Translations under genes and position numbers: made by a program
Source of the DNA: Polyangium fumosum
GTDB lineage: Bacteria; Myxococcota_A; Polyangia; Polyangiales; Polyangiaceae
Direction of reading: 5' to 3'
DNA: 64,000 nt
NCBI RefSeq assembly: GCF_005144585.1
Contig: NZ_SSMQ01000062.1
Coordinates: 1 to 64,000 of the forward strand
Notes under the pieces: generated by a model
What the model was told of the DNA's origin: nothing
What the model saw: the letters and a program-made list of their open reading frames with translations, nothing else
Database searches by the model: none
Part shown: one piece after another, positions 1-61,801 of the stretch
Position numbering within the stretch: position 1 is the stretch's first letter
How the letters are laid out: each line of letters begins with the position of its first letter

Positions 1-95
1 CCCCCGGCTCCGTCACCATCAGTCGCGGCCTGGAACGCCTAGCTCCCGCAGCAGAGATGCTGCGCGTCCTCAGGGAGAATGGGCTCGTAAGATGA
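1..95 (+). CDS. C-terminal end of an unidentified protein, cut by the window edge
   Basis: Reading from base 3 gives an uninterrupted frame of about 30 residues ending at a TGA at 93-95. The peptide contains SRGLERLAPAAEMLRVLREN, an amphipathic helical tail with GC-rich third positions. The start lies outside the window. It cannot be assigned to a family; a transposase tail is possible but unsupported. The hairpin element that begins near base 107 follows the stop almost directly. Confidence 0.35.
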   Translation, partial: PGSVTISRGLERLAPAAEMLRVLRENGLVR

Positions 96-106
96 GACCA
101 GTGCTC

Positions 107-384
107 AGGGCACGGCCTGGACCGAGGATGGAAGAACTGCGCATTGCGCAGTTCTTCCAACGGGCCGGTGGCAAGACCATGGAGGTGGGTTTCGAGCCGG
201 CGACGGGCACGCTGCCGGCTAAACCTGCAGCGCCGTGGCCGTAGTGGGCAGGATCGTCGCCAGTCTTGCCACCGGCTGTTCGATGAACTGCGCGGAGCGC
301 AGTTCATCGGGCCTGGGTCCAGCCCCTGGCTGGTCCGGGTCCAGGGGCGGACAGCCCCTGGTGGGGCCTGGGGCAAAGCCCCAG
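107..384 (+). repeat. Composite intergenic hairpin element, copy A (nearly full length)
   Basis: This element contains, in order: a 31-bp dyad (TGGAAGAACTGCGC, 3-nt loop) at 129-159; a core bounded by inverted GGTGGCAAGACC / GTCTTGCCACC ends at 163-276; a 29-bp dyad (CGATGAACTGCGC arms) at 281-309; and three further hairpins at 319-333, 341-361 (loop GGACA) and 368-384 (loop AAA). The same order appears inverted at 13955-14284, and half copies lie at 48741-48863 and 61072-61197. Beyond the first dyad this copy matches copy B only to about base 107, so its left arm is truncated. The last hairpin ends 16 bases from the stop codon of the minus-strand ATPase gene. Short ORFs inside it are not credible genes. 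Confidence 0.85.
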
Positions 385-4231: not shown

Positions 4232-4352
4232 AACATCGATAGGTTCCAGGGATCGGTCTGCGGCGGGAGGTCCGGCGCCCTGGATACGTCCGGAGACGCA
4301 GGTTTCGGGCGCGCGAGGGTGGGAAAGCGTTCGAAGGGGCGCGGGAGAACGT

Positions 4353-4610
4353 GACGCGCGGGTGTTCGAACGTTTGGAGACCCTCGCGCGACGAGGACGC
4401 GCGGGTGTTACGACGTCCCGACAGCCCGAGGCGAACGTGACGCGCGGGTGTTCGACCGTTTGGAGACCCTCGCGCGACGGTGACGCGCGGGTGTTCGACC
4501 GTTTGGAGACCCTCGCGCGACGAGGACGCGCGGGGGTTCGAACGCCTGGAGACCCTCGCGCGACGATGACGCGCGGGGGTTCGACCGTTTGGAGACCCTC
4601 GCGTCAGGGC
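4353..4610 (+). repeat. 43-bp tandem repeat array, six units
   Basis: Six consecutive 43-bp units start at 4353, 4396, 4439, 4482, 4525 and 4568, each beginning GACGCGCGGG(T/G)GTT. Five are close matches, sharing TTTGGAGACCCTCGCG in the second half; unit 2 keeps the first 14 bases but is rearranged after that. The period is not a multiple of three, so successive units fall in different frames and the array is unlikely to be coding. It lies between the VOC stop and the CusF-like start. The flank 4232-4352 contains diverged fragments of the same words (GCGCGGGAGAAC, CGTTCGAA) but no gene. Confidence 0.9.
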
Positions 4611-4682
4611 GGAAGCACACCGATGCGTCGTGCCGCACGCGGCGCAGGTGTTCGGCACCAGCCACCGAGGCTCTTCCGCCCC

Positions 4683-4772
4683 CGCTGCCGCGTCCGCCTC
4701 CGCTGCCGCGTGCGCCCCCGCTGCCGCGTCCGCCTCCGCTGCCGCGTGCGCCTCCGCTTCGGATTCCGCCTT
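4683..4772 (+). repeat. 18-bp (36-bp higher-order) tandem repeat upstream of the CusF-like gene
   Basis: Four 18-bp units start at 4683, 4701, 4719 and 4737 with the consensus CGCTGCCGCGTSCGCCTC. A fifth degenerate unit follows at 4755. Units alternate between GTCC and GTGC forms, giving a 36-bp period. In one frame they would encode a Pro/Leu/Arg repeat and in another an Ala/Ser/Cys repeat. Both precede the lipoprotein signal of the next gene, so translation is not supported. Confidence 0.8.
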
Positions 4773-7148: not shown

Positions 7149-9092
7149 TCACGGCCCGCAGAGCGCGGGGTTTGGCGCGGGCGGGAGCGGGTACGCCTCC
7201 GTCGCCTCTTTGGCGAACTGGCATTGGAGATCCTCGGCCTTGCACCCGCCCTGGCTGATGCAATTGCCGTTCGCGTCCGTGCCCTGGCAAAGGCAATTGG
7301 TGTCGCCCTCGGGGCAGATCTCGACAAGCTCCATCATCCCCATGTCCTCGTGGTTCAGCTTGTGGCAATGCAGCACGAACTGGCCCGTGAACTTGCGGAA
7401 GTTCGTCAGGATCTGCCGCGGCCCGTCCTCCGCCTGCACCCAGAACGTGTCGCGCCAGTGCGGGAAGTTCGGCTCCTTGTTCGAGTCGTTCGCGCAGACG
7501 AGGTACGGATTGATGTGAATGTGGAACGGGTGCCCGTCGAACGCGCGGATCTCCCATTTCTCCGTCGTCCCCACCTCCATCACCCGGTCGCTGCGGTACC
7601 CCCAGGCGCGCCGATCGTCGAAGCGGCGGCAACTGATGTTCGGGGCGGGGCAAATACACGTCGGCGCGTCCGGATCGATGCCGTGCATGTGGTCGCCCGG
7701 ATCACACGAGCCGAGCTCGGCGGGTTTCTCCGGGTCGGGTTTTTCCCCGGGCGTGGGGACGAGCAACGCGATCTTCTGGTGGATCTTGTCGACCGATTCG
7801 CAGCTCGCCTGCACCATCTGGCCGTCGACCTTGCCCATGAACGTCGTGGGCGGGGCGAGGGCCGCGACGGCCGACGCCTCCGGCATGTTCGTCTCCGTCG
7901 GCGCTCCGTTTTCCGCATCCACGTCGAAGATCGCCACGAGGCTCCCGAGCAGATCGGACGGGCGCCGCCCCACGAGGCAAAGCGTCGTCTTCTCGGCGGG
8001 CATCTTTACGAGGGCCTCGATCCGATATCCGGGGGAGACCCACATCGTATCGCTCACGTAAAACTGCGGCAGCGTGATGCCGTCGCGGGCGATCTGCGTG
8101 ATCTCGATCGGATGCAGCACGTCGAACGATTCGCAGGTCGGATCGTCCGAGGGGTGGAGCTTCATCCCGAGCTCGTTCGGCGTACCGGCGTGCACGATCC
8201 GCAGACGCTCGACCTGGTTCGGCGAGGTCTTGATATGCGGCAAGAGCTTGCCGCTCACGAGCGTCGGCTTCGTATCGTTCTCCGCGCCCTCGAAATCGTT
8301 CGCCGAGAGCGTATCCTCGCTGCAAGCCTCGCCATCCGCGAGCGGCCGCGTCGACTCGACATTGATGGGCACGCCGCCGAGGACCATGATCCTCTCCTTT
8401 GCCTTGGCGATGCCCGGCACCTCGTCGAGATCCCCCTCGATGACGAGCGCGCCCGCGGCCCCGTTCGTCACCTGAATGGCCGTCGAGCCGTGGATGTGCG
8501 GGTGATACCAGTTGAACCCCTCGTGGTGCGGCCCGTCCTCGTCGAGATCCCAGCGGTATTGCGCCATTTCGCCGGGCGGCACCTCGTGCAGCACGTCGTC
8601 GGCGTGGTACCGCGCGTCCGGGCCGCAGCCCGATCCTTCGCAGGGGTCTCCCGCGGCGGGCGTCGCGTAGTTCGGCTGGACGTGCGTGCCGTGCGCGTGC
8701 AGGTTCGTCAGGTTGAAATCGTGGCACGTCACCGCCGACGTATTCGCGGCCCCGGCCACCAGCCGGTAATCGGAGCGCTTGAAATCGTTGTGGAGGTTGA
8801 CCCGCACCTTGCGATCGGCGCCGGCCGGCACGCGGATCGTCGGGCCCGGGATCGATCCATTGTAGGTCCGCAGGCAATACCGTTTTCCGCCGATCTTCAC
8901 CTCGCTCGGCGCGAGGCGCAGCTCGTGCACCCCCGCCGCGTTCGGGGCGAGCTCCGGCGGGTTCTCGAAGATCTCGGGCGGACCCGCGGGCGTCGCGGCT
9001 TCGTCCGAGCAGCCGCCGAGCGCCGCGCTCAGCAAGAGGAACGCGCATCGCCCTGCGTGATGCATTGGTAAGCCAAGGATCGCTTGTTTCAT
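7149..9092 (-). CDS. Multicopper oxidase, lipoprotein
   Basis: The 647-residue precursor has a signal ending in lipobox AALGGC (Cys28). All four multicopper oxidase copper motifs are visible: LHAHG (His132 and His134), WYHPHIHG, HPFHIHIN, and HCHKLNHEDMGMM, which supplies the trinuclear-cluster and type 1 His/Cys/His/Met ligands. Such enzymes oxidise metals or phenols at the expense of O2, and bilirubin- and CotA-type members have similar spacing. A Cys-rich tail (CPEGDTNCLCQ...) and a CICPAPNISC segment are unusual additions. The first ATG gives MKQAILGLPMHH; an internal ATG at residue 10 is an alternative. The divergent MoxR gene starts 167 bases away. A CusF-like gene nearby supports a copper link. 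Confidence 0.92.
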   Translation of the reverse strand: MKQAILGLPMHHAGRCAFLLLSAALGGCSDEAATPAGPPEIFENPPELAPNAAGVHELRLAPSEVKIGGKRYCLRTYNGSIPGPTIRVPAGADRKVRVNLHNDFKRSDYRLVAGAANTSAVTCHDFNLTNLHAHGTHVQPNYATPAAGDPCEGSGCGPDARYHADDVLHEVPPGEMAQYRWDLDEDGPHHEGFNWYHPHIHGSTAIQVTNGAAGALVIEGDLDEVPGIAKAKERIMVLGGVPINVESTRPLADGEACSEDTLSANDFEGAENDTKPTLVSGKLLPHIKTSPNQVERLRIVHAGTPNELGMKLHPSDDPTCESFDVLHPIEITQIARDGITLPQFYVSDTMWVSPGYRIEALVKMPAEKTTLCLVGRRPSDLLGSLVAIFDVDAENGAPTETNMPEASAVAALAPPTTFMGKVDGQMVQASCESVDKIHQKIALLVPTPGEKPDPEKPAELGSCDPGDHMHGIDPDAPTCICPAPNISCRRFDDRRAWGYRSDRVMEVGTTEKWEIRAFDGHPFHIHINPYLVCANDSNKEPNFPHWRDTFWVQAEDGPRQILTNFRKFTGQFVLHCHKLNHEDMGMMELVEICPEGDTNCLCQGTDANGNCISQGGCKAEDLQCQFAKEATEAYPLPPAPNPALCGP

Positions 9093-13343: not shown

Positions 13344-13934
13344 ATGTCCTTCCTGAAAAACTGGACCGCGAAGCCCACCGCCGCCGCGCCGGCCGCACAA
13401 GACGCCCGCCTCCTACCGGAGAGCGTGCCCCTCCAGCTCACGCCAATCCTCGCCGCACTCGGCCAGGTCCTCGCGGAGATCGAGCCAGCCGCGCTGGACG
13501 TCGACGTCGCGCGGGCCAAACTCGCAGACCTCTGCCGCGACCTCGCAATCGAGCCCGTCGATCCGCTGGAGCTCGACCCCATGGCCGCAGGGCTCGATCG
13601 AGGCGCAATCGAGCGGCTCGCGCTCCTCGTGCTCGTGCTCGAACGGCGCATGATCCCCGAATCCACGCTGAAACGTATCTTCGAGGGACGCGCGCGCACC
13701 GCAGCACGCGAAGGCCTTTTCGACGTCGCGCGCGGCACCAGCCTCGTGACGCTCGACCTGCTCCGCCAAAGCCCACTGCGCCGCGAGGAACTCGCGCGCA
13801 GGCTCATCCTCGGGCTCGGCGCATCCGTCGCAGGCGAGAGCCTCGCCGAGGCACGCACAGCGCTCGAGCGGCTCGATTACAGCCGGCTGATGGCCGAGGC
13901 GGAGCGGGCACGGCGGGCGGCGGGGAAGGGGTGA
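13344..13934 (+). CDS. Small helical protein ending the MoxR-vWA gene set
   Basis: The 196-residue protein starts at ATG 4 bases after the vWA gene stop, so it belongs to the same operon. The sequence is almost entirely predicted helix, with Leu/Ala/Arg-rich segments (LERLALLVLVLERRM, ELARRLILGLGASVAGE). No catalytic motif, signal peptide or membrane segment is seen. No family was recognised. Its constant tight linkage here suggests a structural or adaptor role with the AAA/vWA pair. Hairpin element B begins 20 bases after the stop. Confidence 0.72.
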   Translation: MSFLKNWTAKPTAAAPAAQDARLLPESVPLQLTPILAALGQVLAEIEPAALDVDVARAKLADLCRDLAIEPVDPLELDPMAAGLDRGAIERLALLVLVLERRMIPESTLKRIFEGRARTAAREGLFDVARGTSLVTLDLLRQSPLRREELARRLILGLGASVAGESLAEARTALERLDYSRLMAEAERARRAAGKG

Positions 13935-13954
13935 GCCTCTCTGAAGCGGTTTCG

Positions 13955-14284
13955 CTGGGGCGTTGCCCCAGGCCCCAGGAGGGGGCTGTCCGCCCCCTCC
14001 ACCCCGGACCAGCGAGGCGCTGGACCCAGGGTCGATGAACTGCGCGATGCGCAGTTCATCGAACAGCCAGTGGCAAGACCGGCGACGATCCTGCCCACGG
14101 AGGCCGCGGCGCCGCCGGCTCAACCGGCCACGTTCGCGTCGCCAGGTTGGAACCCCCTCGATGGTCTTGCCACCGGCCCGTTGGAAGAACTGCGCACCGC
14201 GCAGTTCTTCCACCTCGGTCCAGGCCGTGCCTGGTCCGGGTCGAGGGGCGGACAGCCCCCGCGGGGTCCGGGGCAGCGCCCCGG
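13955..14284 (-). repeat. Composite intergenic hairpin element, copy B (most complete)
   Basis: This is the inverted counterpart of copy A. Plus-strand order: hairpins at 13955-13971, 13978-14000 (23 bp, 9-bp stem, GGACA loop on the minus strand) and 14009-14023; dyad 14033-14061 (GATGAACTGCGC arms); a core bounded by GGCAAGACC / GGTCTTGCC; dyad 14182-14212 (GAAGAACTGCGC arms); hairpins 14220-14234, 14245-14259 and 14268-14284. Both arms are present. The outermost hairpins lie 20 bases from the stop of the plus gene at 13934 and 19 bases from the stop of the minus gene at 14304. It fills the whole convergent gap, and no gene lies within. Confidence 0.9.
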
Positions 14285-14303
14285 CGCGACGGCCCTGCCC
14301 CTC

Positions 14304-35845: not shown

Positions 35846-37888
35846 ATGCCTCTCATGAAGCGTCTCTTCGTCGGCATTTCTCTTGGTGGTCTCCTCCTCG
35901 TCGGTTGCAGCGACGGCTCCAGTCCAAACACGAGCACGAGCTCGAGCTCCGGTTCGGGCTCCGGCGGCTTCGGCGGCACCGGGGGCTCCGGCGGCTTCGG
36001 CGGCACCGGGGGCGACGGCGGCCTCGGCGGTACCGGGGGCGACGGCGGTCTTGGCGGTGGCGGAGGCATGGGGGGCGGCGGCGCCGGAGGAATGGGCGGC
36101 GTGGGCGGCACCGGTGGAATGGGCGGCGTGGGCGGCGCTGGTGGCATGGGCGGCGCCGGTGGCATGGGCGGCGCCGGTGGGGCAGGGGGCATGGGCGGCG
36201 CGGGCGGCGCGCCTGCGTGCGTCGTCGATGGCGTCGTAAAGCCCCCGGAGCAGTGCGACGACGGCAACCTCGTCGACGGGGACGGCTGCGATCAGGATTG
36301 CACGTTTTCGTGCGTCAACCCCGCAACCGATTGCCCCGCGGCGCCGCCTTGCCAGCAAAGCGCGTGCATCGCGAACCATACCTGCGTCACCCTCGCCGAT
36401 CCCGCGCAGAACGGCACCTCGTGTGGCCCGAACGCGATCTGCAAGGACGGCGTCTGCGCGGCCGCCGTCTGCGGCGACGGCGTCGTGCAGAACGGGGAGC
36501 AATGCGATTTCGGCGCGGCGAACGGCCCCAATGCGGGCTGCGAGGCGAACTGCACGTTCTCGTGCACCAAGGGGCCGGACTCCTGCCCCGACGCCGAGAC
36601 GTGCAACGGCGTCGAGTCGTGCACGACCGTGATGAGCGGCGCGAACGTCGGGCAGAAATGCATGCCGGGCGTGCAGGTCCTCGATTGCACGGCGTGCGCC
36701 TCGGGCGTCTGCGCCTCCGGCGTGTGCAAGGCGTCTACGTGCGGCGACGGCTGCGTCGACCCCACGATGGGCGAGCAATGCGAACCGCCGAGCACCCCCC
36801 TCTGCGACGCGATGTGCAAGACCGTCCCCTCGGCCATGTGCGGCAATGCCATCCGGGAAGTCGGCGAGGACTGCGACGACGGCAACCAGGTCAACCTCGA
36901 CGGCTGCGACGGGTCCTGCAAGTTTGAGCAGGATCTGCGATCGAACTACCTCGTCATGCAGTTCGGCACCGACACCTTCTGCGGGACGGTGAACCAGCTC
37001 GGCCAAGCAATCACGGCGGGCGTGGCCGGAAATCAGCTCCAGATCAACATCGATCAGGGCATCAGCGCCGGGACGACGGGCTTCCTCGCCAAGATGTTCG
37101 GCCTCGCGAGCCTCGTCGGTGTCGACGATCCCTCGGTCGAGGTCGGCGTCGTGCGCGGCACGCCCGTGGCGGGCGCGGCCTACAACGGATCGAGCGATCT
37201 CGATTGGTGGTACAACACGAACACGGCGACGCTCGACGCGTCCCGGAACCCGCTCGACAAACTCGCAGGCAACATCACCGGCGGCGTTTTGCAGGCGGGG
37301 CCGGGCTCGATGAGCCTCCCCCTCAATTTCTTCCCGGGCAACGCGACGCTCCTCCGCCTATCGAGCGCCAAGTTCCGCGTCTCCGTCAACGCGGGCTCGG
37401 TGCCGCTCGTCTCGAATGGAACGCCCCCCGGCCACCTCGCCTCCGAGCACCTGAACCCCGCGTTGCAGAGCTTCGCGAGCGTGGGGCAAAAAGACGCGAC
37501 GTTCTCCGGTCTGCTCTGCGGCAACATCAGCGCGAGGTCGCTCGCGCAGGCCCCCATTCCGTCGGAGTTCCTCCCCGGCGGCCAGCTCGCGTGCACACAG
37601 GGCTACAGCGCCGCGAATTCGCTCCTCGACGTGATCACGTCCGGCTGTTCGATCAGCCCCTTTGGGTTCCCGATTGTAGCCATCAACGCGACGCAGCCGG
37701 ATGAGGCCGATCCGGCCGCGCCCGTCGGCGGCGCCGGCGCGCCCTACAAGCTGACCGTGAATGCGCAGAAGGTCGTGGCGAGCTGCACCGACAAGAACAA
37801 CACGGCGGTGAACGTCTCCACCTGCCTCGACGCGGCCGCATATTCGAGTTTCTTCCGCTTCGCGATGGGCCGCGTCATCCTCAAGTGA
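35846..37888 (+). CDS. Gly-rich lipoprotein with Cys-rich DUF4215-type repeats
   Basis: The 680-residue precursor has the lipobox LLLVGC after a short signal (MKRLFVGISLGG). Residues about 35-122 are a Gly-rich GGxGG repeat, probably a flexible linker. Cys-rich repeats follow, including EQCDDGNLVDGDGC, EQCDFGAANGPNAGC and EDCDDGNQVNLDGCDGSC, which fit the myxobacterial DUF4215/Cys-rich-repeat pattern. The last 320 residues (from about 360) form an unrecognised domain with few Cys. It is probably displayed on the cell surface. GGAGG 12 bases before ATG 35846 supports the start (ATG 35855 is possible). Such multi-copy proteins are typical of Polyangiales. Confidence 0.82.
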   Translation: MPLMKRLFVGISLGGLLLVGCSDGSSPNTSTSSSSGSGSGGFGGTGGSGGFGGTGGDGGLGGTGGDGGLGGGGGMGGGGAGGMGGVGGTGGMGGVGGAGGMGGAGGMGGAGGAGGMGGAGGAPACVVDGVVKPPEQCDDGNLVDGDGCDQDCTFSCVNPATDCPAAPPCQQSACIANHTCVTLADPAQNGTSCGPNAICKDGVCAAAVCGDGVVQNGEQCDFGAANGPNAGCEANCTFSCTKGPDSCPDAETCNGVESCTTVMSGANVGQKCMPGVQVLDCTACASGVCASGVCKASTCGDGCVDPTMGEQCEPPSTPLCDAMCKTVPSAMCGNAIREVGEDCDDGNQVNLDGCDGSCKFEQDLRSNYLVMQFGTDTFCGTVNQLGQAITAGVAGNQLQINIDQGISAGTTGFLAKMFGLASLVGVDDPSVEVGVVRGTPVAGAAYNGSSDLDWWYNTNTATLDASRNPLDKLAGNITGGVLQAGPGSMSLPLNFFPGNATLLRLSSAKFRVSVNAGSVPLVSNGTPPGHLASEHLNPALQSFASVGQKDATFSGLLCGNISARSLAQAPIPSEFLPGGQLACTQGYSAANSLLDVITSGCSISPFGFPIVAINATQPDEADPAAPVGGAGAPYKLTVNAQKVVASCTDKNNTAVNVSTCLDAAAYSSFFRFAMGRVILK

Positions 37889-48740: not shown

Positions 48741-48863
48741 GGTCTTGCCACCGGCCCGTTGGAAGAACTGCGCGTTGCGCAGTTCTTCCACCTTCGGTCC
48801 AGGCCGTGCCTGGTCCGGGTCGAGGGGCGGACAGCCCCCGCGGGGTCCGGGGCAGCGCCCCGG
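48741..48863 (+). repeat. Hairpin element, half copy C (GAAGAACTGCGC type)
   Basis: One arm of the composite element: inverted-end word GGTCTTGCCACCGGCCC, dyad 48760-48790, hairpins 48799-48813 (CCAGGC stem), 48824-48838 (GGGGC stem, GGACA loop) and 48847-48863 (CCGGGGC stem). The 3 hairpins match the right arm of copy B. It stands between two plus-strand genes, 82 bases after the first stop and 63 before the next start. Confidence 0.85.
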
Positions 48864-48926
48864 CGCGACGCCCCTTGCCGCGTCCTTCCGCGGCAGGCTG
48901 GGCCAGCCCGTGGTATCCTCACGGCC

Positions 48927-49442
48927 ATGAGCTTGCTTCGACCATGGTCAAACCCTCGCATTCGGCAGCTTGGGCGCCTCGCTCTGCTGCCGATCATCAT
49001 CTTTGCCGGCTCGTGCTACCAGGCGCCGAGCTGCAACCTGAATTTCGACAACTGCCACGGGGACGGCGAGTGCGGGCCGGGGTTCATCTGTGCCCAGGAG
49101 ACGTTTTCGATTGGCCTCGCGTGTATCGCTGCGACCGAGTGCCAGAGCAACACGGATTGCCCGGGCGGGGCGATTTGCATCCAGCGCGCGACGATGCCCC
49201 CCGACAACCCCTTCGGGGCCGAATCGCCTGGCAAGAAGGTCTGTAACTGCGGCTCGTTCTGCAACGGCGGCGTCGGAGGCTTCGGCGGCACGGGAGGCTT
49301 CGGGGGCGCCGGAGGGGAAGGCGGTGTCGGAGGCGAAGGCGGGATCGGAGGCGCGGGCGGCAGCGGGGGCGCTGGTGGAATCGGGGGCGCGGGCGGAATC
49401 GGGGGCGTCGGTGGCGTCGGTGGAATGGGAGGTGGGAATTGA
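48927..49442 (+). CDS. Cys-rich, Gly-rich-tailed lipoprotein
   Basis: The 171-residue precursor starts at ATG 48927 (MSLLRPWSNPRIRQ), with a hydrophobic stretch LALLPIIIFAGSC ending in a lipobox. A Cys-rich domain (about residues 30-112) includes CHGDGECGPGFIC and ECQSNTDCPGGAIC. The last 57 residues are an almost pure GGxGGxGG repeat ending GGMGGGN, an unusual place for such a linker. It probably belongs to the same group of surface lipoproteins as the DUF4215-type gene. The following gene overlaps its stop (TTGA), so the two are translationally coupled. Confidence 0.75.
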   Translation: MSLLRPWSNPRIRQLGRLALLPIIIFAGSCYQAPSCNLNFDNCHGDGECGPGFICAQETFSIGLACIAATECQSNTDCPGGAICIQRATMPPDNPFGAESPGKKVCNCGSFCNGGVGGFGGTGGFGGAGGEGGVGGEGGIGGAGGSGGAGGIGGAGGIGGVGGVGGMGGGN

Positions 49443-58559: not shown

Positions 58560-58735
58560 CCTCGGTGTCGGGTGCAGGCAGGTCTTCGGACTCACGAGCG
58601 CTTCGGCGATTGCCGGGTTCCTACTTTTCGCCGCTTCCCAGGCCCCAAAGGTCCCAGTGCATGAGGCGAATTTCGTTCTCGTTTACCGCTGCGGGGCAGT
58701 CCCGGAGTTTCACCGGGTTCCCTTTTTAAGGCCGG
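58560..58735 (-). promoter_or_regulatory. Cobalamin (B12) riboswitch in the nrdAB leader
   Basis: On the minus strand the leader shows the cobalamin riboswitch core in order: GGTGAAACTCCGGGACTGCC (plus 58694-58713), CCCCGCAGCGGTAA (58682-58695), then CACTGGGACC, GGGAAG, and the B12 box GAGTCCGAAGACCTGCC (58577-58593). The 5' part near 58720 (GGGAACCC) would form P2. Binding of adenosylcobalamin usually represses the downstream gene, so the class I reductase would be off when B12 is available. The Streptomyces nrdABS operon is a known precedent. Confidence 0.9.
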
Positions 58736-58763
58736 GCCGAGGCCCAACCACCAGCACGGGCGC

Positions 58764-58793
58764 ACCCTATGGTCGTGTCGGGCGGGATGTCAA
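58764..58793 (-). promoter_or_regulatory. Sigma-70-type promoter of nrdAB
   Basis: Minus-strand TTGACA (plus 58788-58793) is followed, 18 bases on, by TAGGGT (plus 58764-58769) as a weak -10 element. A transcript starting near 58757 would include the whole riboswitch. The -35 is a perfect match, the -10 only a partial one. No other candidate in the 240-base divergent gap is as good. Confidence 0.55.
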
Positions 58794-60495: not shown

Positions 60496-61071
60496 AACGG
60501 ATCGGGTGCGACGCGACGCCCTATGAGGAGATCCACGCTCCGCCACGCGGCGGAGACGGAGGAAGGGGCCTGGAATCCGGCTGAACACGTGCCCTCTGCC
60601 GTCGACGGTGCTTGTTCGGCGGCGCGACAAACGCCTCCGCCGGACGACGGCCCGAGGGACGCGGCGCGCTTCCTGCCGTTGGCCTGGGCGCTTTCGGGTT
60701 GTCCCCTGTGACAAGCTCCGGCGAGGTCCGACAGCGCGTGTTTCGCGGCTCGACAAGGACCGTCGGCCGGCTCCGGCCTTTGTCTTTATGCTTGACCTTC
60801 CCCCGGGTCCACGCGTCGCACCGTGTCCGGCGCCGAGACACGTTCCCTTTCGCGCCGACGCGCCTTGTTCCGCTCCGTGCTTGATGCTGGGCGGTGGAGC
60901 GGTGACACGTCACGGCGCGGAACAAACAAGGACGAGGGCTGACGTCGTTTGTCGAGCCTCTGCGGGGGGCGACGGCTCGGGCGCGCTGATTGCTACCAAG
61001 CCCCTGGCAGATCTCGTCCTCTCCCACCGGGACTTGTCTACGCTGCGGCCTTGCTTGGCAGACTCGCCACG
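60496..61071. other. Intergenic region without a supported gene
   Basis: No open frame here has a convincing start, domain or codon pattern; ORFs on both strands are Arg/Pro-rich and overlap each other. The words TTGT(C/T) and GACAA recur (for instance GTTGTCCCCTGTGACAAG), and TTGTTCCGC at 60865-60873 is inverted as GCGGAACAA at 60917-60925. A regulatory RNA or remnants of former repeats are possible. No hairpin with a T-tract was found. Confidence 0.5.
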
Positions 61072-61197
61072 GACCTTGCCTCGGCCCGTTCGATGAACTG
61101 CGCATTGCGCAGTTCATCGATCCTGGGTCCAGCGCCTCGCTGGTCCGGGGTGGAGGGGGCGGACAGCCCCCTCCTGGGGCCTGGGGCGACGCCTCAG
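61072..61197 (+). repeat. Hairpin element, half copy D (GATGAACTGCGC type)
   Basis: One arm of the composite element: CTTGCCTCGGCCCGTTCG, dyad 61091-61119, hairpins 61129-61143 (CCAGCG stem), 61152-61174 (GGAGGGGGC stem, GGACA loop) and 61181-61197 (CTGGGGC stem with a G-T pair). It matches the left arm of copy B. The outermost hairpin ends 1 base from the stop codon of the minus-strand GST gene at 61199. Confidence 0.85.
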
Positions 61198-61198
61198 C

Positions 61199-61801
61199 TC
61201 AGGCGCGCTTTTCGAGATAAGCGGCGACGCTCGGGAGGGCGCGGAGGCGCTCGTGGAGGGCGCGGAGCTTGGGGAAGTCGGCGAGGCTCTCGGGCTTTGT
61301 GCTGAGGTGGTTGTCGAGCGTGTCGAAGGCGAGCACGTCGGCGTAGGTTGGCGACTCTCCGCCGCCGAACCAGGTACAGCTTCCGAGCAGACCTTCCACG
61401 GTGCGCAGCGTTGCGGGCAGGTCGGCCCAGTACTTTTCGATCACGGCCTGATCGGTTTGCATGAATGCGGCGAACTGCACGGGGGCGAACTTGGTTCGCC
61501 AGTCGTTGAGGGTCTCGGCTGCGACGTCTGCGTTCGTCTTTTCGGCTTCGTCCTTGCCGGCGAGGTCGAAGACGCGCGCGAGGTGACGCATGATGGCCAT
61601 GCTTTGCGCGATCTTGCGCTCGCCGGCGTCGCTGCGCTCGACGAGCACGGGGAGCTGGCCGAGGGGCATCTTTGGCTTGAGCTCGGGCCAGTTTGTGACG
61701 GGGGTGTTGGTGAAGGGGACGTTTGCCGTGGCGAACATGAGCCGGAGGGGCTCGGCGCGGCCACGGAGGGGGAAATAGAGCAGCTCGTAGGAAGTGGACA
61801 T
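61199..61801 (-). CDS. Glutathione S-transferase (sigma/prostaglandin-D-synthase-like)
   Basis: The 200-residue protein has a thioredoxin-fold N-terminus: YELLYFPLRGRAEPLRLMF, with a catalytic Tyr near residue 9, then GQLPVLVE (cis-Pro loop) and SMAIMRHLAR. The C-terminal all-helical domain includes FGGGESPTYADVLAFDTLDN, the usual substrate-site helix with the conserved Asp. It conjugates glutathione to electrophiles or detoxifies peroxides. The length is typical (about 200). The ATG at 61801 is the first. Hairpin element D lies directly beyond its stop. Confidence 0.92.
   Translation of the reverse strand: MSTSYELLYFPLRGRAEPLRLMFATANVPFTNTPVTNWPELKPKMPLGQLPVLVERSDAGERKIAQSMAIMRHLARVFDLAGKDEAEKTNADVAAETLNDWRTKFAPVQFAAFMQTDQAVIEKYWADLPATLRTVEGLLGSCTWFGGGESPTYADVLAFDTLDNHLSTKPESLADFPKLRALHERLRALPSVAAYLEKRA

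Follow-up and report, generated by a model that had tools for sequence, protein, structure and literature searches.

The DNA analysed here, hereafter the window, is a stretch of 64,000 nucleotides from Polyangium fumosum (positions 1 to 64,000 of contig NZ_SSMQ01000062.1, assembly GCF_005144585.1), and it holds four copies of a dispersed repeat made of long palindromes and hairpins. These copies probably belong to an old, Polyangium-specific family that resembles miniature inverted-repeat transposable elements (MITEs) and derives from an insertion sequence (IS) of the IS4 family, Tn5 type. Read from the centre of an element outwards, each half consists of a palindrome (P), three hairpins (H2, H3 and H4) and a tail. 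What carries this reading is a 19-base end that the elements have in common with the IS of the same genomes; because the repeat's outer end is that of the IS, the IS transposase could have spread the repeat in trans. The initial annotation had proposed an unnamed family like either MITEs or repetitive extragenic palindromes (REPs), and of this the dispersed, structured, MITE-like family stands but the REP affiliation does not.

The 19-base end CTGAGCAYTGGTCTCATCT, at up to 3 errors, occurred 26 times in the loci read: at 6 IS ends, at 20 element ends and nowhere else. At all 20 element ends, H4 lay 12–13 bases inside it. When the tail was sought within 60 bases of H4 at up to 2 errors, it was found at 20 of 256 outer ends (128 complete copies) and at none in either control (the reversed and the reverse-complement versions of the tail). 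At 3 errors there were 35 ends versus 3 and 2 in the controls, and at 4 errors 71 versus 37 and 35. The distance of the tail from the outer hairpin was fixed at 30–33 bases. In a profile of 370 ends, conserved sequence continued past H4 for about 12 bases, and to about 32 bases where the end was uneroded; most element ends have lost the IS-type tail. A search for target duplications next to the hairpins (121 copies, offsets 0–21) yielded longest repeats like those of shuffled pairs, the best single offset among 484 giving 6 versus 1.0 expected at length 3; those ends are not the true ends.

The repeats had been thought to lie far from any cut-and-paste enzyme. This proved wrong, as positions 1–108 of the window are the end of an IS4-family IS inserted in the first copy. 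The last 30 codons and the stop of its transposase occupy positions ∼3–95, in a frame that matches the end of the intact transposase at locus L131, and the terminal repeat GATGAGACCAGTGCTCAG of the IS ends at position 108. We searched 39 genomes for this IS (E 1e-30), among them the window's own genome (G000) and five other Polyangium genomes (G001–G005). Intact copies, and with them an intact transposase, were present in two of these six, one copy in G002 and four in G004; more distant matches occurred in G019 and G024. The IS is 1,503–1,504 bp long, and its transposase of 475 residues matched NF033590 with 240.6 bits (cut-off 160) and contained the Pfam domains Tnp_DNA_bind, Dimer_Tnp_Tn5 and DDE_Tnp_1. 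By these sequence matches it is assigned to the IS4 family, Tn5 type.

The IS was repeatedly found within the repeats. Three intact copies were flanked by exact 9-base target duplications, that of G002 (L290, also L131 569–2071) and those of G004 at L291 and L301, and all three lay in H2 of an element. The insertions at L291 and L301 were at the same spot of H2, and their duplication was the same as GGCACGGCC at positions 109–117 of the window. At L297 the IS lay inside an element without a duplication, and at L300 it lay outside elements. The G000 IS ends on contigs C159, C165, C16, C20 and C160 all adjoined element sequence, a count biased toward insertion inside elements, as the G000 IS loci were mostly met via element searches.

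All four places initially described, 107–384, 13955–14284, 48741–48863 and 61072–61197, contained the hairpins ascribed to them. The unit was correctly seen as a long dyad followed by three hairpins, but the first two copies are each two inverted halves, one GAAGAAC half (B) and one GATGAAC half (A), and the last two are single halves. The spans likewise capture the core, but the element runs beyond them through its tail. In the long copies an inner inverted repeat, GTGGCAAGACC/GGTCTTGCCAC, joins the B and A halves; the left half of 107–384 is interrupted in its second hairpin by the IS insertion. The complete element at 13943–14294 lies between two convergent genes, whose ends are at 13934 (+) and 14304 (−). 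The features are as follows.

1–108 (+): right end of the IS4-family IS, inserted in H2 of the adjoining element
109–394 (unstranded): element 1 from the point of IS insertion onward, with the remaining B half (duplication GGCACGGCC 109–117, P 129–159) and a full A half (P 280–310, H2 319–333, H3 341–361, H4 368–384)
13943–14294 (unstranded): complete element, an inverted pair of halves whose outermost IS-type ends are unrecognisable
13955–13971 (−): outer hairpin H4, A half (profile of 370 ends; alignment columns 104–120)
13978–14000 (−): H3, A half, its loop pairing with 14006–14008
14009–14023 (−): H2, A half
14032–14062 (unstranded): central palindrome P, A arm TCGATGAACTGCGC
14070–14080 (unstranded): inner inverted repeat, left arm GTGGCAAGACC, partner 14163–14173 (from sequence and fold)
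14163–14173 (unstranded): inner inverted repeat, right arm GGTCTTGCCAC (from sequence and fold)
14182–14212 (unstranded): central palindrome P, B arm TGGAAGAACTGCGC
14220–14234 (+): H2, B half, the same hairpin being the IS insertion site in other copies
14235–14237 (+): TCC pairing with the H3 loop GGA at 14250–14252, a proposed pseudoknot (covariation, 357 parsed halves)
14245–14259 (+): H3, B half, GGGGC GGACA GCCCC
14268–14284 (+): outer hairpin H4, B half
48741–48873 (+): single B half (P 48760–48790, H2 48799–48813, H3 48824–48838, H4 48847–48863)
61041–61205 (+): single A half plus a portion of the inner region (P 61090–61120, H2 61129–61143, H3 61152–61174, H4 61181–61197)

Far from being scarce elsewhere, the repeats, which measure roughly 350 bases, number in the hundreds. 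G000 is a 12.98 Mb assembly of 201 contigs, the window forming the start of C159, and it held 385 sites of the P core at up to 2 mismatches versus 5 for the reversed pattern, which, together with the fold z scores given below, rules out a chance origin. At up to 1 mismatch the P core was present in 8 of 59 genomes: the six Polyangium genomes had 41, 190 (G003), 203, 276 (G000), 448 and 490 (G005) sites, and among the other 53 two had one site each and the rest 0. A covariance model of the half, the search suggested at the outset, matched the six Polyangium genomes and one other genus among the 59, and in a named-genome scan the carriers among the matches listed were Polyangium sp. 15x6, 6x1 and y55x31. 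The family is found in the six Polyangium genomes only, with a remote look-alike in one other genus of the same taxonomic family. That genome, G028, has a multi-hairpin repeat of its own in about 100 copies (57 covariance-model matches, 101 at E 0.1; loci L249, L256 and L258–L285) whose outer hairpins are similar, but an inverted partner within 400 bases was found for 0 of 30 motif copies and 4 of 22 were placed between convergent genes, and it was excluded from the family on pairing and gene context.

Pairing of halves is the rule in Polyangium, where 350 of 387 P sites in the loci had a partner 80–200 bases away and 37 did not. Further palindrome arm types, TTGAAAAACTGCGC and CGCATCGACTGCGC, were seen usually beside an A or B half (L030, L031, L043, L167, L172–L174), and some of these arrays hold three palindromes. 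A master element with cargo was considered and rejected: four inverted pairs had 352–741 bases between their halves, with no called gene inside. Plasmid and phage searches at distant sensitivity gave no match to the repeats, and a phage or plasmid vehicle was discarded, the single viral-contig match being a palindrome on its own, with a T-rich stretch after it and the rest of the element missing. Because the G000 copies were picked by likeness to a single half, with 40 of 341 candidates scored, together with the first pattern matches, that sample is biased toward copies that are alike.

The fold is conserved well beyond the window. A 361-base copy gave fold z scores of −13.2 and −14.6 on the two strands, and a single half gave −3.9. 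In a MAFFT alignment of 95 halves, out of 174 left by a redundancy filter from 366, 99.4% of 3,544 stem cells were paired under the stated structure, and 19 of 38 pairs showed changes on both sides (308 such cells). Among 500 shuffles of this alignment none matched the pairing, the both-side changes or the covariation score, and 1 matched the pair-type count; sliding the partners by 1–3 columns lowered the paired cells to 34–43%. RNAalifold returned four hairpins and a few weaker pairs for the halves. The compensating stem changes first noticed in the window are thus borne out over 95 halves, and pairing did not break down as more copies were aligned. No Rfam family scored above its gathering threshold at the four window copies; at E up to 1 there was one sub-threshold match in the 441 bases compared.

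One loop took part in this covariation. The GGACA loop of H3, initially called constant, varies in its first three bases together with an upstream triplet. The triplet before H3 was complementary to the first loop bases in 356 of 357 parsed halves (5 were unparsed), the upstream/loop combinations being TCC/GGA (275), TTC/GAA (80), CGC/GCG (1) and TCA/GGA (1). Judged by these substitutions, the H3 loop and the upstream triplet probably form a pseudoknot, although independent changes are few because TTC/GAA mostly accompanies one H3 type. A literature search with partial coverage found no pseudoknotted repeat of such a kind.

The argument that covariation means selection for the folded form is too strong for the long palindromes, because only 9 of 4,706 cells of the central stem were non-Watson-Crick (badly broken palindromes had been filtered out beforehand). 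Such near-perfect arms could also be produced by template-switch correction or by gene conversion from a small number of masters. In the full form of this alternative, the long palindromes are perfect through template-switch repair or arm-copying conversion, and covariation reflects a process acting on DNA and not selection on the fold. It is the strongest of the alternatives and a real possibility, if on balance a doubtful one. The near-perfect central stems suit it, as do loop triplets present in both orientations (ATC 184, GAT 27; two main arm types) and the homogenisation of copies within genomes; it does not readily explain either the covariation of loop and upstream triplets, with 356 of 357 halves matching in three versions, or the compensation in the short stems. 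G–T and A–C mismatches (5 versus 1) were too few to assign the strand of action.

We located 27 G000 sites in relatives, calling a site filled if it had at least one half-element match and scoring only sites with both flanks aligned. Comparison of locations, another check proposed initially, gave a divided answer: occupied junctions were often common to relatives, but many sites were empty, mostly in G004. There, 11 of 21 scored sites were filled and 10 empty, versus 11 filled and 3 empty of 14 in G003, and 11 filled and 1 empty of 12 in G005. Of the window's four copies, only the first is matched by a palindrome site in the corresponding G004 stretch, where none of 39 junctions unoccupied in the window had one (one window, one genome). 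At the junction at 13939, the other four species compared hold 2–3.5 kb of other sequence. Depending on the species, the junctions near 7149, 9232 and 13939 were empty, held an element or held 1–3.5 kb of other genes; judged by eye, the other inserts at element junctions look like ordinary variable genes. The empty convergent G004 junctions L183, L185 and L192 carry other hairpins such as CCCCTCTCCC..GGGAGAGGGG.

Several sites speak to the age and loss of copies. L002, L012 and L028 are empty in G004, yet G003 and G005, which are more distant, have them filled, suggesting loss in G004, and L208 and L189 retain a single H4 hairpin. At L028 the tail occupies an identical position ahead of one and the same gene in G000, G005 and G003 (by eye), which indicates that the insertion there is shared; the copies of the two relatives are only 0.67 and 0.73 alike to that of G000. 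For 26 ortholog pairs tried, 24 were scored (two L008 pairs gave no element), with a mean identity of 0.76 versus 0.87 and 0.86 for the best paralogs; identity was 0.80 for G004 (9 pairs) and 0.74 for G003 and G005 (15 pairs). The ortholog beat the best paralog in 1 of 24 and 0 of 24 cases, and for 7 of the 9 G004 pairs the gap between the ortholog and the best paralog in G004 was <0.035. Orientation was opposite in 9 of the 24 pairs (2 of 9 in G004, 7 of 15 in G003 and G005). Of 190 copies, 147 had their nearest copy within their own genome (shuffled mean 46.7, maximum 67), with uneven sampling (G002 68, G005 49, G000 35, G003 23, G004 15); for the 35 G000 copies, 17 nearest copies were in their own genome and 12 in G004.

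This pattern is best fitted by inheritance with gene conversion and occasional inversion. Each half would once have borne the 19-base terminal repeat of the IS at its outside; most insertions would be ancient and inherited, with outer ends since eroded. Gene conversion would keep the halves alike within each genome, inversion between inverted halves may occasionally reverse a copy, and deletions may remove copies, sometimes leaving a single outer hairpin. The repeats are now themselves a target of the IS.

Turnover by re-insertion would account for the same sites differently, with hot-spot junctions losing their copies and receiving new mobile ones by way of a folded intermediate or an unknown enzyme. 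Such re-insertion is possible because the filler beside copies, between stop codon and element, differs at many sites, and the 10 of 21 sites empty in G004, the opposite orientation of 9 of 24 ortholog pairs and the lower likeness of orthologs than of paralogs would all follow from it. We nevertheless consider it unlikely, and less credible than the DNA process discussed above. At L028 three species share the exact base at which the tail stands, and at L027 this is partly so; no fresh-ended copy was found among 128. The filling of L002, L012 and L028 in more distant relatives is consistent with loss, and 7 of 9 G004 pairs have an ortholog within 0.035 of the best G004 paralog.

Descent from the IS also has observations to reckon with. 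None of the 128 copies combines both ends with a 9-base duplication, which leaves transposition by the IS putative; both tails were present in 3 of 128 copies only, and of the 9 flanking bases these three had 3, 2 and 0 in agreement. None of the 20 element tails matching CTGAGCAYTGGTCTCATCT at up to 3 errors is from a G000 locus. L016 is empty in all three relatives and yet is without a tail, unlike a fresh insertion. The IS is represented by pieces only in G000, G001 and G005 and by no match at E 1e-30 in G003, while the IS-poor G000, G003 and G005 still hold the numerous palindrome sites counted above. Intact G000 copies may be unassembled, because the pieces there stop at contig ends. These points weigh against a MITE-like origin; the 19-base end common to elements and IS of the same genomes favours it.

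The placement of the elements relative to genes was distinctive. With genes called by a GC-codon-bias caller built for this analysis, 115 complete copies with both neighbours called lay between convergent genes in 76 cases, tandem genes in 31 and divergent genes in 8, versus 48, 190 and 54 of 292 background gene pairs in large stretches, an odds ratio of 9.9 for convergent placement (copies are not independent, hence p-values are indicative only). A called gene was overlapped by 1 of 121 copies. In convergent gaps the space left outside the element had a median of 20 bases (n=75) versus 22 in empty gaps (n=38). In tandem gaps the copy was closer to the upstream stop in 27 of 31 cases, at a median position of 6% of the gap. 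Convergent gene ends would appear to be places that tolerate such insertions. We asked whether the tail motif CTGAG supplies the neighbour's stop codon and rejected this, as it did so at only 2 of 20 tail ends; the CTGAG stop context was found in 31 of 170 cases beside elements, versus a general frequency of 33 of 299.

A role at the 3′ ends of RNAs may be inferred, and a benefit such as 3′-end protection or insulation is a guess. In its strong form, the repeat is a host 3′-end RNA element selected between convergent genes as an mRNA stabiliser or insulator, its transposon origin being mere history; we rate this slightly below re-insertion. In its favour are the occupied junctions also occupied in relatives (11 of 21 in G004, 11 of 14 in G003 and 11 of 12 in G005), the 0 of 39 unoccupied window junctions with a palindrome site in G004, the position near the upstream stop in tandem gaps and the loop-upstream covariation. 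However, G004 lacks the element at 10 of 21 sites, just the first of the four window copies has a palindrome site there, and the L013 copy follows a terminator-like hairpin that carries a T run. The element's own hairpins have no T run following them in the 370-end profile, and no intrinsic terminator was called inside the element at 13955–14284. A further proposal, which we hold to be improbable and a shade more so, is that the IS spread the repeats and that these now serve as gene-free landing pads, with the IS homing into H2 and gene conversion maintaining the likeness of hundreds of pseudoknotted copies within each genome on account of recognition of the fold, either as DNA by the transposase or at RNA 3′ ends.

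IS4-family MITEs (IS4/IS10/Tn5 type) are non-autonomous, with inverted ends and a terminal repeat in common with an IS of the same genome. The Polyangium repeats are like this general class in these respects and differ in their very large folded halves, their homogenised copies, the IS that inserts into them and the lack of a copy with intact ends and a duplication. A literature search with partial coverage, in which IS4-family MITEs were not searched for, found no such repeats for Polyangium or other myxobacteria.

REPs and REPINs (inverted REP doublets) likewise lie inverted in extragenic space downstream of genes, as described in the available sections of PMC3733652 and PMC3116915, and REPINs linked to a REP-associated tyrosine transposase (RAYT) resemble the present family as inverted doublets with hundreds of extragenic copies at 3′ ends. 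The Polyangium repeats share the pairing (350 of 387 P sites) and the extragenic position, but have four-hairpin halves of about 115 bases, IS4-type ends and no GTAG tag. GTAG was absent from all 338 palindrome feet on either strand; at 370 outer ends there were 2 GTAG and 34 CTAC, and the CGTC tag was not conserved (GACG 74, CGTC 13). Because PF01797 aligns only partly to RAYT classes (PMC6006769, available sections), NF047646 was used as a second RAYT model. It exceeded its cut-off in 0 of 6 Polyangium genomes, with sub-threshold matches in 3, and PF01797 was absent in 3 of 6, the two-contig G004 among them. In G005, two loci (L181 on C74 and L288 on C54) gave partial Y1-type matches, their open frames spanning 248 and 260 residues; loci of about 3 kb around Y1 matches contained neither palindrome nor outer hairpin. 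The Y1 gene of G000 (152 residues) has a partial copy 2.7 kb off and a palindrome 7.7 kb off, and is not flanked by repeats. That the family consists of REPINs whose RAYT was lost or went unrecognised is thus very improbable: the inverted 3′ doublets, the sub-threshold NF047646 matches and the partial Y1 matches are compatible with it, but the tag, a RAYT above cut-off and flanking repeats are missing and the IS4-type end is the better fit.

Two further systems offer partial parallels. CGTC REPs, in the available sections of PMC3733652, are palindromic extragenic repeats without a dedicated RAYT; the Polyangium repeats are much larger, have IS4-type ends and lack a conserved CGTC tag. ISPpu9 sits in copies of a Pseudomonas extragenic palindromic repeat (PMC8450116, available sections) and so likewise is an IS lodged in such a repeat, but the Polyangium repeat additionally carries the IS's own terminal repeat.

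Apart from the repeats, the window contains a cobalamin riboswitch (RF00174, 100 bits) at 58560–58770 (−), tandem repeats at 4312–4612 (five overlapping 129-base matches, 43-base steps) and 4677–4766 (four 36-base matches, 18-base steps), and two alike glycine-rich-looking repeats 13 kb apart (35972–36220 and 49266–49427).

If the family is indeed MITE-like, Polyangium would have a REP-like 3′-end repeat family tied to an enzyme of IS4 type, not to a RAYT. It would be a natural case for asking how repeats at inherited sites stay alike in one bacterial genome, and whether an IS uses its own MITEs as safe landing sites, while the covariation between the H3 loop and its upstream triplet provides a concrete structural prediction.
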